Of a stretch of 64,000 nucleotides of DNA, positions 4,225 to 9,205 are shown piece after piece. The notes below the pieces were generated by a model, which was given only the letters and a program-made list of their open reading frames with translations, was not told where the DNA came from and did not search any database. Numbering within the stretch: position 1 is the first letter of the stretch; every line of letters begins with the position of its first letter. Where the stretch lies: positions 1 to 64,000 of the forward strand of contig CACJQE010000006.1 in NCBI GenBank assembly GCA_902595465.1. The letters run 5' to 3'. Position numbers and translations under genes: made by a program. The stretch comes from an uncultured Pelagibacteraceae bacterium (lineage in GTDB: Bacteria > Pseudomonadota > Alphaproteobacteria > Pelagibacterales > Pelagibacteraceae).

Positions 4225-5114
4225 TGGATTGGGATAAATTAAAGATATTTCATGCAGTTGCTGAAGCAGGAAGTTTTACAAGTGCTACTGTCATTCTAAA
4301 TCTTAGCCAATCTGCAATTAGTAGACAAATTCAATCCTTAGAAGAGGATTTAAAAGTTAAATTATTCGAACGTCATGCAAGGGGTCTAACATTAACCGAA
4401 AATGGTGAATATGTATTTAAAACAGCCCATGAAGTAATATCAAAATTAAAAGAGGTAGAAACTACATTAGGTGATAAAAAGAATAAACCATCTGGTAAGC
4501 TTACAGTGACTACTGTAGTCAGCTTTGGAACAACGTGGTTAACGCCAAGAATACAAGAATTTATGCAGCTAAATCCAGAAATTGAAGTTGAGCTTATATT
4601 TGATGATAAAGAGTTAGATTTAAGTACTAGACAAGCAGATATTGGAATATTTATGAGAAGACCAAAACAGCTTAATTATATTCAAAAGAAGTTAATTGAT
4701 ATCAATTATCATATTTATGGATCTCCAAAATACCTAGAAAAACATGGTTATCCTAAAACCGTAAATGACTTAAATAAGCACGACTTTATTTCTTTTGGTA
4801 GAGGAGCACCTTCTCCAGTTTATAATCCTGATTGGGCTTTAAAGCTTGGGATGAAAGATAATAAAAAAAGGAAAACTGCAATGAGAGTAAATAGTGTTTA
4901 TGGTTTACTTTTAGCTGTACAGAGTGGTGTAGGTTTAGCCGCAATACCTGATTATTTGACTGTGAAACAACCAAATATTGTTAAAGTTTTACCTAACGTT
5001 CAAGGTCCAACTACAGAGGCACACTTTGTATACCCTCAATCACTAAAAAATGTTGCTAGAGTTCAAGCTTTTAGGAACTTCCTTTACAGTAAAATTTCTG
5101 AGTGGGAATTTTAA
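4224..5114 (+). CDS. LysR-family transcriptional regulator
   Basis: A 296-residue LysR-type regulator: N-terminal winged helix-turn-helix (DWDKLKIFHAVAEAGSFT..., SQSAISRQIQSLEEDL, residues about 1-60) and a C-terminal two-lobed effector domain beginning around KLTVTTVVSFGTTWL. The ATG shares its A with the stop codon of the acuI-like gene, an arrangement that implies co-translation. LysR regulators normally diverge from their target, so the same-strand position suggests autoregulation of the pair or action elsewhere. The effector is unknown. Confidence 0.92.
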   Translation: MDWDKLKIFHAVAEAGSFTSATVILNLSQSAISRQIQSLEEDLKVKLFERHARGLTLTENGEYVFKTAHEVISKLKEVETTLGDKKNKPSGKLTVTTVVSFGTTWLTPRIQEFMQLNPEIEVELIFDDKELDLSTRQADIGIFMRRPKQLNYIQKKLIDINYHIYGSPKYLEKHGYPKTVNDLNKHDFISFGRGAPSPVYNPDWALKLGMKDNKKRKTAMRVNSVYGLLLAVQSGVGLAAIPDYLTVKQPNIVKVLPNVQGPTTEAHFVYPQSLKNVARVQAFRNFLYSKISEWEF

Positions 5115-5141
5115 ATAAATCATCAAAAAAACGTTTCTAAT

Positions 5142-5206
5142 TGCGATTGATTATCAGTTGCGACAATATTGCAATTGATAATCATTTTCATTGAGAATAG
5201 TTATCA
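5142..5206 (+). promoter_or_regulatory. Tandem Fur-box array upstream of the Fe(III) transporter
   Basis: Measured against the 7-1-7 Fur consensus TGATAATnATTATCA, the site at 5176-5190 (TGATAATCATTTTCA) has one mismatch and the site at 5192-5206 (TGAGAATAGTTATCA) has two. A weaker upstream copy at 5142-5156 (TGCGATTGATTATCA) has three. The two downstream sites start 16 bases apart. The 16-mers at 5141-5156 and 5169-5184 also form an imperfect direct repeat with two differences. The array ends about 54 bases before the binding-protein ATG, where a Fur-type repressor would block transcription. Whether the regulator is Fur or another alphaproteobacterial iron regulator cannot be told from sequence. 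Confidence 0.75.
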
Positions 5207-5259
5207 TCCGCATTGCAGGACAAAATACTTTTAATATAAATAAAAAATTAAGGAGTAGA

Positions 5260-6282
5260 ATGAGAAAATTAACAATAATTTCATTGTTTTTTGCTTTAAT
5301 TTCAAGTTTTACGATTGCTGCTGAAGTCAATATTTTTAGTGCAAGACACTATGATTCTGACATTCAATTATATGAAAAGTTCACAGCAGCAACAGGAATT
5401 AAAGTAAACGTAGTATCAGGTAAAGATAAAGCCCTGCAGAAAAGAATTACTGAAGAGGGAGCAGACTGTGTTGGAGATTTATACATCACAGCTGATGCTG
5501 GAAGACTAGGTGCATTTGCTGCAAAAGGAATGATGCAAAATGCAGGTTGGTCAAAAGCTATTAAGGATGCCGTACCTGCACAATTTAGATCTGCAAAATG
5601 GACTGGAATAGCTAAGAGAGCAAGAATAATTTATTATTCACCTGAAAGAGTAAATGCAAACGAACTTAATGGCATGACTTATGAAGGTCTAGCTGATCCA
5701 AAATGGAAAGGTAGATTAGTAATAAGAAAGTCTAACAACATCTATAACCAATCTTTAGTTGCTTCACTAGTTAAAAATCTTGGTAAAGCAAAAACTGCAG
5801 AATGGTCAAAAGCTGTTGTAGCAAACATGGCTAGAACTCCAAAAGGTAATGACCGTGCTCAAATCATGGCTGTAGCTGCAGGAGAAGCTGATATTGCCGT
5901 TGCAAACACATACTATCATGCATTGATGTTATCTGGAAAAAAAGGTGCTGAACAACAAGAAGCAGCAAAAAAAGTAATGCCTTTTTTCCCTAATCAACAA
6001 GATAGAGGAACGCACATTAATATTAGTGGAGCTGGTATGCTTAAATATGCACCGAACAAAGCTAATGCTGTAAAATTAGTTGAGTTTTTATTATCAACAG
6101 AGGCTCAAAATCACATTGTAAATAACACTTTTGAGTATCCAATGATCGGTGGTGTAACACCTAATGATTTAGTTCCTGGCAAAGAGATGAACTTTGTAAT
6201 GGATACTAAAACAAGTGTTAAGTCATATGGTGCAAAACAAGCAGATGCATTAGAAGTAATGTTAGCTGCAGGTTGGAAGTAA
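5260..6282 (+). CDS. Fe(III) ABC transporter periplasmic binding protein (FbpA/FutA type; SfuC in Pelagibacter)
   Basis: Captures ferric iron in the periplasm and delivers it to the permease encoded downstream. I chose the ATG at 5260 because it follows AGGAG by a few bases and gives a clean signal peptide (MRKLTIISLFFALISSFTIAA), while the longer frame from 5191 would start inside the Fur boxes. Mature residues typical of iron ligands are seen: His-Tyr in FSARHYDSD and the Tyr pair in VANTYYHALML. It is followed without a gap by a 57-residue Cys-motif ORF and then by a strong hairpin before the permease. Regulation by iron is supported by the Fur array. I am confident of the iron role because of both family and operator. 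Confidence 0.93.
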   Translation: MRKLTIISLFFALISSFTIAAEVNIFSARHYDSDIQLYEKFTAATGIKVNVVSGKDKALQKRITEEGADCVGDLYITADAGRLGAFAAKGMMQNAGWSKAIKDAVPAQFRSAKWTGIAKRARIIYYSPERVNANELNGMTYEGLADPKWKGRLVIRKSNNIYNQSLVASLVKNLGKAKTAEWSKAVVANMARTPKGNDRAQIMAVAAGEADIAVANTYYHALMLSGKKGAEQQEAAKKVMPFFPNQQDRGTHINISGAGMLKYAPNKANAVKLVEFLLSTEAQNHIVNNTFEYPMIGGVTPNDLVPGKEMNFVMDTKTSVKSYGAKQADALEVMLAAGWK

Positions 6283-6456
6283 ATGACAGCTAATAAAAAA
6301 AAATTTACTACGGAATTTGATTATAATAAATCTTCCAAAGCCTGTCCTGCATGTGCTACGGAGTGTGAAAAAATCAATAAACGTGTAAATAATAGAAAAT
6401 TGTCTGAAATTAAAACTAAGGAGGTTCCGCATATCCTAAAAGTATTTAATTTTTGA
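6283..6456 (+). CDS. 57-residue protein with CPACATEC (CxxCxxxC) motif, in iron operon
   Basis: A small ORF that directly abuts the iron-binding-protein stop (TAA followed at once by ATG), so translation could couple. Its 57 residues have no signal peptide or membrane segment, are Lys-rich, and contain three cysteines close together at residues 21, 24 and 28 (CPACATEC), followed by KINKRVNNRKLSEIKTKEV. I do not recognise the family. The Cys spacing and the place between ferric-binding protein and permease suggest a metal- or redox-related role, but this is inference. It sits upstream of the hairpin, so it should be expressed at the level of the binding protein. A chance ORF is possible, although the compact and precise junction argues against it. 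Confidence 0.55.
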   Translation: MTANKKKFTTEFDYNKSSKACPACATECEKINKRVNNRKLSEIKTKEVPHILKVFNF

Positions 6457-6469
6457 TTTTCTAAAGTTT

Positions 6470-6503
6470 GTGCCCATGGTTTAGTCTCCTAAACCATGAG
6501 CAC
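6470..6503 (+). terminator. Strong hairpin between Fe-binding protein and permease
   Basis: Inverted repeat 6470-6484 with 6489-6503: a 15-base-pair stem (GTGCCCATGGTTTAG against CTAAACCATGAGCAC) with one mismatch and a TCTC loop, followed by only four Ts. It could terminate part of the transcripts or protect the upstream mRNA from 3' decay, giving more binding protein than permease. The stem is the most stable-looking in the window. Confidence 0.75.
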
Positions 6504-6539
6504 TTTTGATTTTCATGATTATAAGGCGGATTATAATAT

Positions 6540-8150
6540 ATGAAATTTAATTCCTGGTACCTTTCTTCATTTTTGGTTTCATTTATTGTTGCAATTCCAA
6601 TTTTAACAGTGTTTGCAAGTTTCTTCCAAGAAACAACTAATTACTTTGATATTTTAAAAAATACATTTTTAATTGAATATATTTATAATTCCTTAATATT
6701 ACTTCTAGGAGTTTTAGTTCTTACATTATTCTTAGGTGTTGGCTGTGCATATGTAGTTTCATTTTATGAATTTCCAGGTGTTAAATTTTTTAAATGGGCC
6801 TTAATATTATCTTTTGCAGTACCAGCTTACATTTATGCTTATTCATTAACTGCTTTTTTTGAAAACTTTGGAACACTATACTCAATATTTAAATCTTTAT
6901 TTGGACCCGGTGAATATAATCAATCCATTCCAAAATTTGATGGTATGCTTGGTGCTATTTTATCTATTTCTTTTTCACTATTTGGATATGTTTACGTTTT
7001 AACTAGAGCATCTTTTCATTATCAGTCTCAAAATTTAATAGAATTAGGACAAAATCTAGGTTTTTCAAAATATAAATCTTTCTTTAAAATCATTTTACCA
7101 TCTGCAAGACCAGCTATAGTTGCGGGTTTAGCATTAGTTGCTATGGAAACATTATCAGATTTTGGAGCAGTATCATTTTTTGGAATAGCAACTCTTACTA
7201 CTGGAATATATGATTCATGGATATCTTTTGATGATTTAGCTTTTGCAAATCAACTCTCATTTTTTTTACTATTATTTATTCTAGGACTTTTTTTTATTGA
7301 GAATATCTCAAGAAAAAAAGCTCAATATCATTCTCCAGTTAAGGGAGGAATCAAAGAAAAGAAGAAAATTAAATTAAACTTTTCAAAAGGTTTTTTAGCA
7401 TTCGGATTTTGTTTTTTAGTTTTTTTAGTCAGTTTTTTATTCCCTGTTTTACAAATGTTGTATTGGACAATAATTTTTCCAAAAAATTTATTTGATTTAA
7501 ATACTTTTCAATTATTTATAAACACAATTTACCTGGTATTTTTATCAAGTGTTGTTCTAGTAATTTTTTCTTTTATTTCAAATTATGGAAACAGAGTAAC
7601 TAAAAGTAAATTCTTAAATTATCTTACAACATTTTCTATTACTGGTTATGCAATCCCTGGTGTAATTTTAGCTGTAGCATTCATCACTTTTATTGCTTGG
7701 TTTGATAATGCTTTTATAAAAGCCTTTGAATTTAATTCTATAAAGAGAGTATTTATAGGATCTATTTTTGGTTTAGTAATAGTTTATTTTATCAGATTTT
7801 ATTCATTAGCTTATAACGGTTTGAAAACTGGTTATGAAAGAATAAATAGGTCAATTGATGAAAGTTCTTATCTTCTTGGTTACTCGAAAATAAAAACCTT
7901 TTTAGGAATTCATGTTCCTTATTTAAAAAATTCTGTTTTTCTTATAGGGATATTGATTACTATAGAAGTAATAAAAGAATTACCTATAACTTTGATATTG
8001 AGACCATTTAACTTTGAAACATTCGCTACAACAGCATATATTTTTGCATCTCAAGATCTCTTAGAGGCTGCAGCAGTTCCATCATTATTCTTGATATTAA
8101 TTGCAAGTACATTTATTTTGATTACGTCTAAATTTATTTTGAAAGACTAA
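6540..8150 (+). CDS. Fe(III) ABC transporter permease (FbpB/SfuB type)
   Basis: A 536-residue inner-membrane protein made of two fused permease halves, each with about six membrane segments, as usual for ferric-iron permeases of this family. EAA-type loops that contact the ATPase can be seen near LIELGQNLGFSKYKSFFKIILPSARP (first half) and SIDESSYLLGYSKIKTFLGIHVPYL (second half). Its stop overlaps the ATPase start by one base. It lies after the hairpin that follows the binding protein and small Cys protein. The start at 6540 gives an immediate membrane segment. Confidence 0.92.
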   Translation: MKFNSWYLSSFLVSFIVAIPILTVFASFFQETTNYFDILKNTFLIEYIYNSLILLLGVLVLTLFLGVGCAYVVSFYEFPGVKFFKWALILSFAVPAYIYAYSLTAFFENFGTLYSIFKSLFGPGEYNQSIPKFDGMLGAILSISFSLFGYVYVLTRASFHYQSQNLIELGQNLGFSKYKSFFKIILPSARPAIVAGLALVAMETLSDFGAVSFFGIATLTTGIYDSWISFDDLAFANQLSFFLLLFILGLFFIENISRKKAQYHSPVKGGIKEKKKIKLNFSKGFLAFGFCFLVFLVSFLFPVLQMLYWTIIFPKNLFDLNTFQLFINTIYLVFLSSVVLVIFSFISNYGNRVTKSKFLNYLTTFSITGYAIPGVILAVAFITFIAWFDNAFIKAFEFNSIKRVFIGSIFGLVIVYFIRFYSLAYNGLKTGYERINRSIDESSYLLGYSKIKTFLGIHVPYLKNSVFLIGILITIEVIKELPITLILRPFNFETFATTAYIFASQDLLEAAAVPSLFLILIASTFILITSKFILKD

Positions 8151-9205
8151 TGGCTAATAATTTTTTTGAAATCGAAAATGTATCTTTTGTTGCTGGTGGG
8201 AAAAATAAAGTTAATAATGTTTCTTTAAAAATTGAAAATGAAGGTGAAATTGTATGTTTACTTGGTCCCTCTGGCATAGGTAAAACCACAATATTAAGAA
8301 CTATTGCAGGTTTAGAAAAAATTAATAAAGGTAAAATTAATTTAAAAGGCAGAACAATTTCTTCTGAAAATATTCATATCGAACCAGAAAATCGTAATAT
8401 TGCTCTATCATTTCAAGAGAACAGCTTATTTCCTCATTACAATATAGAAAAAAATATTAATCTTGGTTCAGATAGAGTGAAAGATGATAAAAAAATACAA
8501 ACTAAAGAAGTAATTAATTTTTTAAACTTAAACAAAATATTAAATAAATTTCCACATGAGATTAGTGCCGGTGAAGCCCAAAGAGCTTCTTTAGCAAGGT
8601 CATTGGTCTCTCAACCAGATTTACTAATGCTTGATGAGCCATTATCTAATGTAGATCAAAGTTTTAAGGAGGAAATTCAAGTTGAATTAAAGCAAATTTT
8701 AACAAATTCTAAAATAACAACAATAATTGTAACACACGATTCTTATGAAGCTTTTTATCTGGGAAGTAAATGTGGAATAATATTAGATGGTGAATTAAAG
8801 CAATATGATGATCCATATAATGTTTATCATTTACCAAATTCAGTAGAAGTAGTTAATTTTTTAAATAGAGGTACATTAATACCAGCAGAAGTTACCAGTC
8901 CGAAAAGTCTTGAAAATGAGGATTTAGGTACAATAACTGGAAATTTCGTTAGACCGTTCCCAATAGGATCTAAAGTAAAACTTTTAATACAGCCAGAAGA
9001 CTTACAACATGATGATGCGAGCAATCTCAAACTTGAAGTAGTAGATAGAAAATTCAGAGGGTCAAATTTTATTTATACATTAAAAACATTAAATAATAAA
9101 TTAATACCAGTTTTTGTGCATTCTCATCATATTCATCAACATGAAGTCGATGAAAAATTTGGTATAAAAAGACCTATCCATATCGATCATATTGTTTGCT
9201 TTTAA
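8150..9205 (+). CDS. Fe(III) ABC transporter ATP-binding protein (FbpC type)
   Basis: The ATPase that drives the iron importer from the cytoplasmic side. Walker A is GPSGIGKTT (about residue 38), the signature is ISAGEAQRASLARSL, Walker B is LLMLDEPLSN, and the H-loop is IVTHDSYEA. The C-terminal third forms a TOBE-like regulatory extension (LIQPEDLQHDDASNL onward). The total of 351 residues is normal. Its ATG uses the last A of the permease stop. Confidence 0.94.
   Translation: MANNFFEIENVSFVAGGKNKVNNVSLKIENEGEIVCLLGPSGIGKTTILRTIAGLEKINKGKINLKGRTISSENIHIEPENRNIALSFQENSLFPHYNIEKNINLGSDRVKDDKKIQTKEVINFLNLNKILNKFPHEISAGEAQRASLARSLVSQPDLLMLDEPLSNVDQSFKEEIQVELKQILTNSKITTIIVTHDSYEAFYLGSKCGIILDGELKQYDDPYNVYHLPNSVEVVNFLNRGTLIPAEVTSPKSLENEDLGTITGNFVRPFPIGSKVKLLIQPEDLQHDDASNLKLEVVDRKFRGSNFIYTLKTLNNKLIPVFVHSHHIHQHEVDEKFGIKRPIHIDHIVCF

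Follow-up and report, generated by a model that had tools for sequence, protein, structure and literature searches.

Does the short reading frame that lies between the ferric-binding-protein gene and the permease gene of a Pelagibacter iron-import operon encode a protein, and what would such a protein do during iron uptake? SAR11 bacteria belong to the most abundant cells of the ocean and frequently face iron shortage. We analyzed a stretch of 64,000 nucleotides (the window) from an assembly of 1.11 Mb (84% complete), the genus of which is labeled g1 and is taken to be Pelagibacter (other genera are labeled g2, g3, g4 etc.); the best 80 of 212 relatives in a species-genome scan were all Pelagibacteraceae. 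The operon comprises the following features, with the names sfuC, sfuB and sfuA used as in the accessible text of Smith 2010 (PMC2864753):

5130-5206, no strand assigned: two inverted repeats and a sequence resembling a Fur box, ahead of sfuC (sequence match)
5260-6282, plus strand: sfuC (futA/fbpA type), ferric-binding periplasmic protein (PF13343, E 1.4e-16)
6283-6456, plus strand: gene of the small CxxC protein, 57 aa plus stop (homologs in synteny)
6540-8150, plus strand: sfuB, permease (PF00528, E 2.3e-13)
8150-9205, plus strand: sfuA, ABC ATPase (PF00005, E 6.5e-31)

The small gene starts with an ATG at 6283 and ends with a TGA at 6454-6456, in exact agreement with the position given for it in the earlier note, which had described a frame abutting the stop codon of the ferric-binding protein; indeed, the TAA of sfuC occupies 6280-6282 and the start of the small gene is the very next base. 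Its 3' end is separated from the ATG of the permease gene (6540) by 83 nt. The short, Lys-rich chain described in the same note was found as well (57 aa, 11 Lys, computed pI 9.6, which is also the median across the distinct small proteins), and neither a signal peptide nor a membrane stretch was seen by eye in the window protein. The family to which it belongs is genuine, mostly of 53-70 residues, usually basic and putatively cytoplasmic.

A search with the window protein returned matches (E ≤ 10) in 136 of 201 Pelagibacter genomes, the list running from E 8e-35 down to 3e-5 with no internal stop, followed by apparent chance hits. Across the family, 151 of 297 genomes (5 of 14 genera) matched the single protein and 161 (6 of 14 genera) matched a profile, the sixth genus being represented by G229 alone, a match (E 6.8e-5) regarded as chance because it has an internal stop and no sfuC on its stretch. 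A member was present in all 165 fetched loci (fetched by similarity), with 103 distinct frames and only 135 distinct neighborhoods, because some genomes came in twice; identity was 93% in the nearest relatives and 19% in the farthest aligned ones. Among 253 pairs of 23 sequences chosen from 105 distinct proteins, the differences at codon positions 1, 2 and 3 were 3382:1456:4440, and amino-acid changes averaged 0.72 of those in a neutral simulation (individual sequences recur in several pairs, and the pairs are not independent). For 139 of the 253 pairs, none of 200 simulations was at or below the observed value (101 of 200 in the worst pair). The plain Nei-Gojobori dN/dS (median 0.47, 3575 of 5460 pairs) is weak evidence here, since synonymous sites look saturated in this AT-rich DNA, and we therefore relied on the codon positions and the neutral simulation.

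A chance ORF was rejected on account of synteny, the many homologs and the coding substitution pattern, and we are nearly certain that the small frame is a real gene. Broken or remnant copies in several genomes might suggest a spurious frame or a decaying, functionless relic; this explanation is refuted by a frame that is open and conserved in well over 100 genomes and by the coding pattern of its substitutions, and it deserves hardly any weight.

The surroundings of the gene are those of an iron importer. It is located between sfuC and sfuB, all three in the same orientation, as an accessory gene of the sfu (FbpABC-type) operon; sfuC was directly upstream in 164 of 165 loci from five Pelagibacteraceae genera (the exception, L130, is cut by a contig end), and in the loci examined in detail the probable start of the small gene was 0-36 nt past the sfuC stop. 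sfuB followed within 400 nt on the same strand in 158 of 165 loci; in the other seven (L018, L021, L104, L111, L121, L125 and L127) it was found about 700-800 nt on, past one extra gene. In two g3 loci (L215 and L219), sfuC and the small gene are separated by an additional 175-221 nt that include a hairpin, and L215 contains a further short frame there. A Fur-box-like site was present upstream of sfuC in all 164 distinct regions, with 1-5 mismatches (4 in the window) to a 19-base Fur box; the best match in shuffled sequences averaged 7.35 mismatches.

According to the accessible text of Smith 2010 (PMC2864753), iron limitation raises sfuC 16-fold in RNA and 27-fold in protein, sfuB 10-fold in RNA and sfuA 5-fold in RNA. 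The small gene should follow the sfuC end of this gradient, because it is located before the hairpin that precedes sfuB (see below).

sfuC was present (threshold E ≤ 1e-60) in 227 of the 297 family genomes and the small gene in 161; both were present in 159 and neither in 68. Likewise 68 of the 227 sfuC genomes were scored negative for the small gene (Fisher p 5e-26, uncorrected for kinship). Of the two carriers without sfuC, one (G054) has its sfuC cut by a contig end and the other is the chance match in G229. The ratio 159/227 is a lower bound, because four further g4 genomes (G227, G273, G323 and G422) carry a divergent variant missed by the profile search. By genus, the numbers of genomes with sfuC and with the small gene were 91 and 83 in g1, 84 and 62 in g4, 14 and 12 in g3, one and one in g13 and in g14, 26 and none in g2, and 10 and none in g5-g9 and g12 together. 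The tie to iron uptake proposed in the earlier note finds support in synteny, in co-occurrence with sfuC and in the Fur-box-like operator.

The small gene is dispensable: several lineages have no copy or a broken one. Most of the examined junctions that lack it have sfuC and sfuB 13-100 nt apart (exceptions: 251 nt in L248 and 550 nt in L252), and remnants or broken copies were found in L165, L206, L211, L219, L221, L230, L236, L241 and L248 (those of L230, L236 and L241 judged by eye). In L248 (1-3001), what seems to be the beginning of the small gene passes into 61 residues that match peroxiredoxin at 69% identity; a deletion may have left this trace. A quick sfuC tree of 101 chosen rows shows 17 changes between presence and absence, with 38 of 98 inner branches open and gain not distinguishable from loss. 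The complete genome G226, in which the small gene is absent (locus L205), appears to be that of HTCC1062: its sfuC match (1,180,955-1,181,971, minus strand) directly adjoins the sfuC/SAR11_1239 spacer at 1,181,972-1,182,071 that the accessible text of Meyer 2009 (PMC2704228) gives for this strain. If so, HTCC1062 raises SfuC 27-fold under iron limitation without the gene, which is therefore not essential.

The cysteines are the most conspicuous part of the protein. The motif CPACATEC covers residues 21-28 of the window protein (6343-6366):

6343-6354, plus strand: codons of the conserved CxxC (Cys21-Pro-Ala-Cys24)
6364-6366, plus strand: codon of the third, variable Cys28

CxxC (C21, C24) was found in 164 of the 164 loci that include this region, an unselected count; the only other locus, L130, is cut before the motif. 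The pattern of three Cys was found in 144 of 165 loci. Among 106 distinct proteins, position 28 was C in 77, A in 21, V in 5, T in 2 and G in 1; this set required CxxC, includes two broken copies and excludes six loci, of which one has an unrelated frame and the others have cut or broken copies. The third Cys was absent from all 15 g3 and g4 loci of one fetch, and many members carry two Cys only. The earlier note had claimed three closely spaced thiols and had proposed to look for the frame and its three Cys in syntenic relatives: the frame and the two Cys of CxxC are conserved there, but the third is replaced in 29 of 106 distinct proteins and was rejected as a defining feature. A Pro occurs within CxxC in 99 of the 106. 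In the alignments A2 and A3, which were selected for CxxC, the invariance of this motif is by construction; in the alignment of 64 diverse members, likewise chosen for CxxC, R38, I51 and K6 reach 90%. The distance from CxxC to the end of the protein is 32-41 residues in 104 of the 106 (the two shorter ones are broken copies). In one g4 clade (L207, L209, L223, L226, L234 and L239), the small gene is divergent and encodes one more Cys ahead of the motif (CxxxCxxC or CCxxC).

AF2 models of the window protein and of a g4 member (pLDDT 78.8 and 76.0, pTM 0.50 and 0.46, i.e., modest confidence) place CxxC at the start of a 14-residue helix 1 followed by a second helix; these are the only helices of four or more residues, and there are no strands. 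Since only two Cys are conserved throughout, a monomer alone would be a poor iron site. A metal-binding structural adaptor, in which two copies share one zinc or iron via CxxC and assist the assembly or gating of SfuB, would agree with CPxC/CxPC at the start of a helix, with the Lys-rich helix, with the place before the permease gene and with the helix residues R38 and I51, kept in at least 90% of the 64 aligned members. However, searches with the AF2 models (Foldseek, VIA) returned no matching solved fold, and the permeases of close relatives do without the small protein, so that we consider such an adaptor unlikely.

The spacer between the small gene and sfuB contains two further elements:

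6470-6503, plus strand: hairpin between the small gene and sfuB (predicted fold)
6519-6536, plus strand: TTATAAGGCGGATTATAA, conserved element that contains the Shine-Dalgarno of sfuB (47 of 85 distinct junctions have it exactly)

The hairpin announced behind the frame was recovered in the dot-bracket fold at 6470-6503. By a threshold, it was scored behind the frame in all 99 distinct Pelagibacter junctions with a frame (two of which are broken copies), and it was also found in the single g13 and the single g14 junction. Its shape is kept while its sequence changes (z below -2 in 41 of 53 spacers); every Rfam match within 5000-6700 was far below the cut-off. Across species, the complementarity between the loop region and the sfuB Shine-Dalgarno takes two whole-motif forms: UCUCCUU pairs with AAGGCGGA, and UUUACCCU pairs with AGGGUAAA. 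In a permutation test on 82 of the 85 distinct spacers, which ignores kinship, loops paired with their own partner at a mean of -6.07 kcal/mol vs -5.32 kcal/mol for permuted partners (0 of 5000 permutations), although on average the own partner was outright better than only 37% of the alternatives, ties included. The loop in the window has only 4 nt, so pairing with the Shine-Dalgarno would compete with the stem. We regard the hairpin region (6470-6539) as a candidate translational lock on sfuB, separate from the function of the small protein.

This hairpin bears on two explanations in which the frame would regulate sfuB. The first is a metal-sensing upstream ORF like CruR, in which iron bound to the nascent CxxC would alter the ribosome and thus, via the hairpin, the expression of sfuB; in favor of this are the constant place of the hairpin behind the Pelagibacter frames and the better pairing of the loop with its own partner, and CruR itself acts through a nascent CXXC with copper, as far as the accessible text of PMC9426467 goes. 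But frames with at most 33 nt behind them, leaving no room for a hairpin, occur in 7 g3 and 5 g4 junctions (two further g4 junctions miss the hairpin threshold), and the hairpin occurs without the frame in ten junctions (3 in g1, 4 in g2, and 1 each in g3, g8 and g4, the last of these a remnant). The C-terminal RAPP arrest motif, which stands at a fixed spacing in CruR, was absent from 204 small-protein sequences, and the distance from CxxC to the end of the chain varies over the 32-41 residues given above. In the six loci of the divergent g4 clade (L207 etc.), moreover, the hairpin lies before the small gene and not after it. We consider a sensing upstream ORF quite improbable, and the sensor role tied to the hairpin is disfavored, because gene and hairpin occur without each other.

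The second is an autoregulatory RNA- or DNA-binding protein, the basic chain of which (median pI 9.6) would bind, with a zinc-type CxxC, the hairpin or TTATAAGGCGGATTATAA and set the translation of sfuB. TTATAAGGCGGATTATAA was aligned in 17 chosen junctions; in favor of such a binder, 47 of 74 distinct Pelagibacter junctions have an exact copy of it, and the sole exact copy in the window's genome is at this site. Against this, no exact TTATAAGGCGGATTATAA was found in the 11 distinct junctions of other genera that have the gene, and the independent occurrence of hairpin and gene speaks against it as well; such a binder seems very improbable. Because each is found without the other, the small gene probably encodes a protein acting in trans and not a leader peptide, and a trans-acting cytoplasmic protein is what we quite confidently expect.

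Genes of redox proteins were found at the same site in some genomes. The extra gene of the seven loci with a distant sfuB encodes a Redoxin-family protein, a peroxiredoxin, with PF08534 matches at E 1.5e-23 for L125 and E 1.3e-24 for L111. Its copies between the small gene and sfuB are, in locus coordinates:

L125:3819-4361, L127:3381-3923, L111:3622-4173, L121:4179-4721: Redoxin-family genes
L018:1821-2315, L021:1765-2310, L104:5310-5801: Redoxin-family genes, degenerate

The three degenerate copies are without the PGAFTPTC-type active-site segment, and the copy of L121 contains a stop; that of L018 has no Pfam match yet aligns to L125 at 31% (E 4e-35), and that of L104 is below the Pfam cut-off. 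A peroxiredoxin-type gene was found directly behind the small gene in 18 of 201 Pelagibacter genomes, positions being compared by hand: the 16 best matches to the L125 protein (63-100% identity) all lie 80-200 nt behind the small gene on the same contig and strand, and two degenerate copies (G003 and G195) lie about 210 nt behind it. The next three matches (51-53%) are on other contigs (G103 and G073) or in a genome without a match to the small gene (G185). As the query came from such a locus, the search favors this peroxiredoxin subfamily; the window's genome had no match to the L125 protein at E ≤ 1e-15. In one g2 locus (L252:1485-1931), a flavodoxin gene (PF00258, E 1.9e-27) lies between sfuC and sfuB; no flavodoxin was found in this slot in the other 30 g2 genomes searched.

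The constant iron-import partner, the occasional peroxiredoxin or flavodoxin and the intact operons where the gene is absent point to an accessory protein that would take over or reduce iron at SfuBA, or else guard the cell against the chemistry of this metal, although the peroxiredoxin and the flavodoxin may be partners of the operon and not of the small protein. A role in handling or sensing metal, as put forward in the earlier note, is plausible for this putative function. On the best reading, a tentative one, the small protein may serve SfuBA as a thiol partner in the cytoplasm, where it would take up, hold or reduce the imported iron. It would be produced along with SfuC from the iron-regulated sfu operon, stay in the cytoplasm and work in trans at the inner face of the SfuBA importer. 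The two Cys at the start of the helix would probably be paired in a homodimer; two thiols with the usual Pro would suit either a metal site to which two copies contribute thiolates or a pair with redox activity. Paired in this way, they could accept, hold or reduce newly imported ferric iron and so provide for a safe entry of the metal, the protein being an accessory that several lineages could do without. We consider rather unlikely the fuller version of this thiol-partner reading, in which a dedicated protein takes Fe(III) from the FbpABC-type permease and hands it on after reducing or caging it, aided in some species by a peroxide-clearing peroxiredoxin; if true, the peroxiredoxin would clear the peroxide that free Fe(II) turns into radicals.

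Many SAR11 iron-import operons encode a tiny protein with two Cys, which suggests a putative cell-side partner for iron uptake. Life at low iron is the premise of Smith 2010 (PMC2864753), the accessible text of which describes a cultured strain without ferritin and siderophore-related proteins. A conserved protein produced along with the chief ferric-binding protein would supply a piece so far missing from the SAR11 uptake route; as HTCC1062 appears to be without the gene, its iron-limitation data could not have revealed the small protein. The gene would also offer a compact test case for the reception of imported ferric iron in the cytoplasm.

The small protein is not described in the literature searched, in which subscription papers are mostly missing, and these searches found no convincing homologs outside Pelagibacteraceae. 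A class-wide profile search of 385 genomes returned two true hits, the window's genome and one congener (best other match E 0.0137); matches in another family of the order (E 1.1e-4 and 0.0065) were taken as chance because they lie inside frames of 233 and 393 aa. Viral contigs gave no convincing match, a sequence search of the PDB gave none, and no Pfam or NCBIfam model recognized the window protein or the 64 members. Scattered weak matches included NqrM (3 of 64 members, best E 0.0021) and an ISL3 transposase (9 of 64, best E 0.0089). DUF326 (PF03860) shares a short Cys-spaced stretch with the window protein (E 0.012), but scores 16.1 bits vs a gathering cut-off of 20.4 and touches only 3 of 64 members. 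The thioredoxin-like MTH895/ArsE model (TIGR00412) shares CxxC and is touched by 5 of 64 members (best E 0.014); these scores are weak and at chance level, and the helical AF2 models, being without strands, argue against a thioredoxin fold.

Among known systems, the nearest mechanism by analogy is that of CruR of Bordetella, in the accessible text of PMC9426467 a nascent CXXC protein sensing copper. As in the CruR/DUF2946 systems described there, a small CxxC frame stands ahead of a transporter gene in a metal-import operon. In contrast to these, the small gene comes second, behind the binding protein, it also occurs without a structured spacer, and its product is without a signal peptide (by eye); DUF2946 was matched neither by the window protein (E ≤ 10) nor by the 64 members (E ≤ 1). 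FeoC, a winged-helix protein with about four Cys encoded beside the iron permease FeoB, and the bacterioferritin-associated ferredoxin (Bfd, Fer2_BFD), with four Cys, resemble the family in genomic role. FeoC, too, is a small Cys protein of the cytoplasm whose gene neighbors that of an iron permease, but the small protein has two constant Cys, belongs with another class of transporter and shows no winged helix in the AF2 models. Neither the window protein nor the 64 members matched the Pfam models of FeoC and Fer2_BFD, many members having only two Cys. Because the small proteins show neither the Pfam match nor the RAPP motif of CruR, and none matched the FeoC and Bfd models, they are best classed as a new family, which these searches found in Pelagibacteraceae alone; its kind is a known one, that of small Cys proteins encoded inside metal-import operons.
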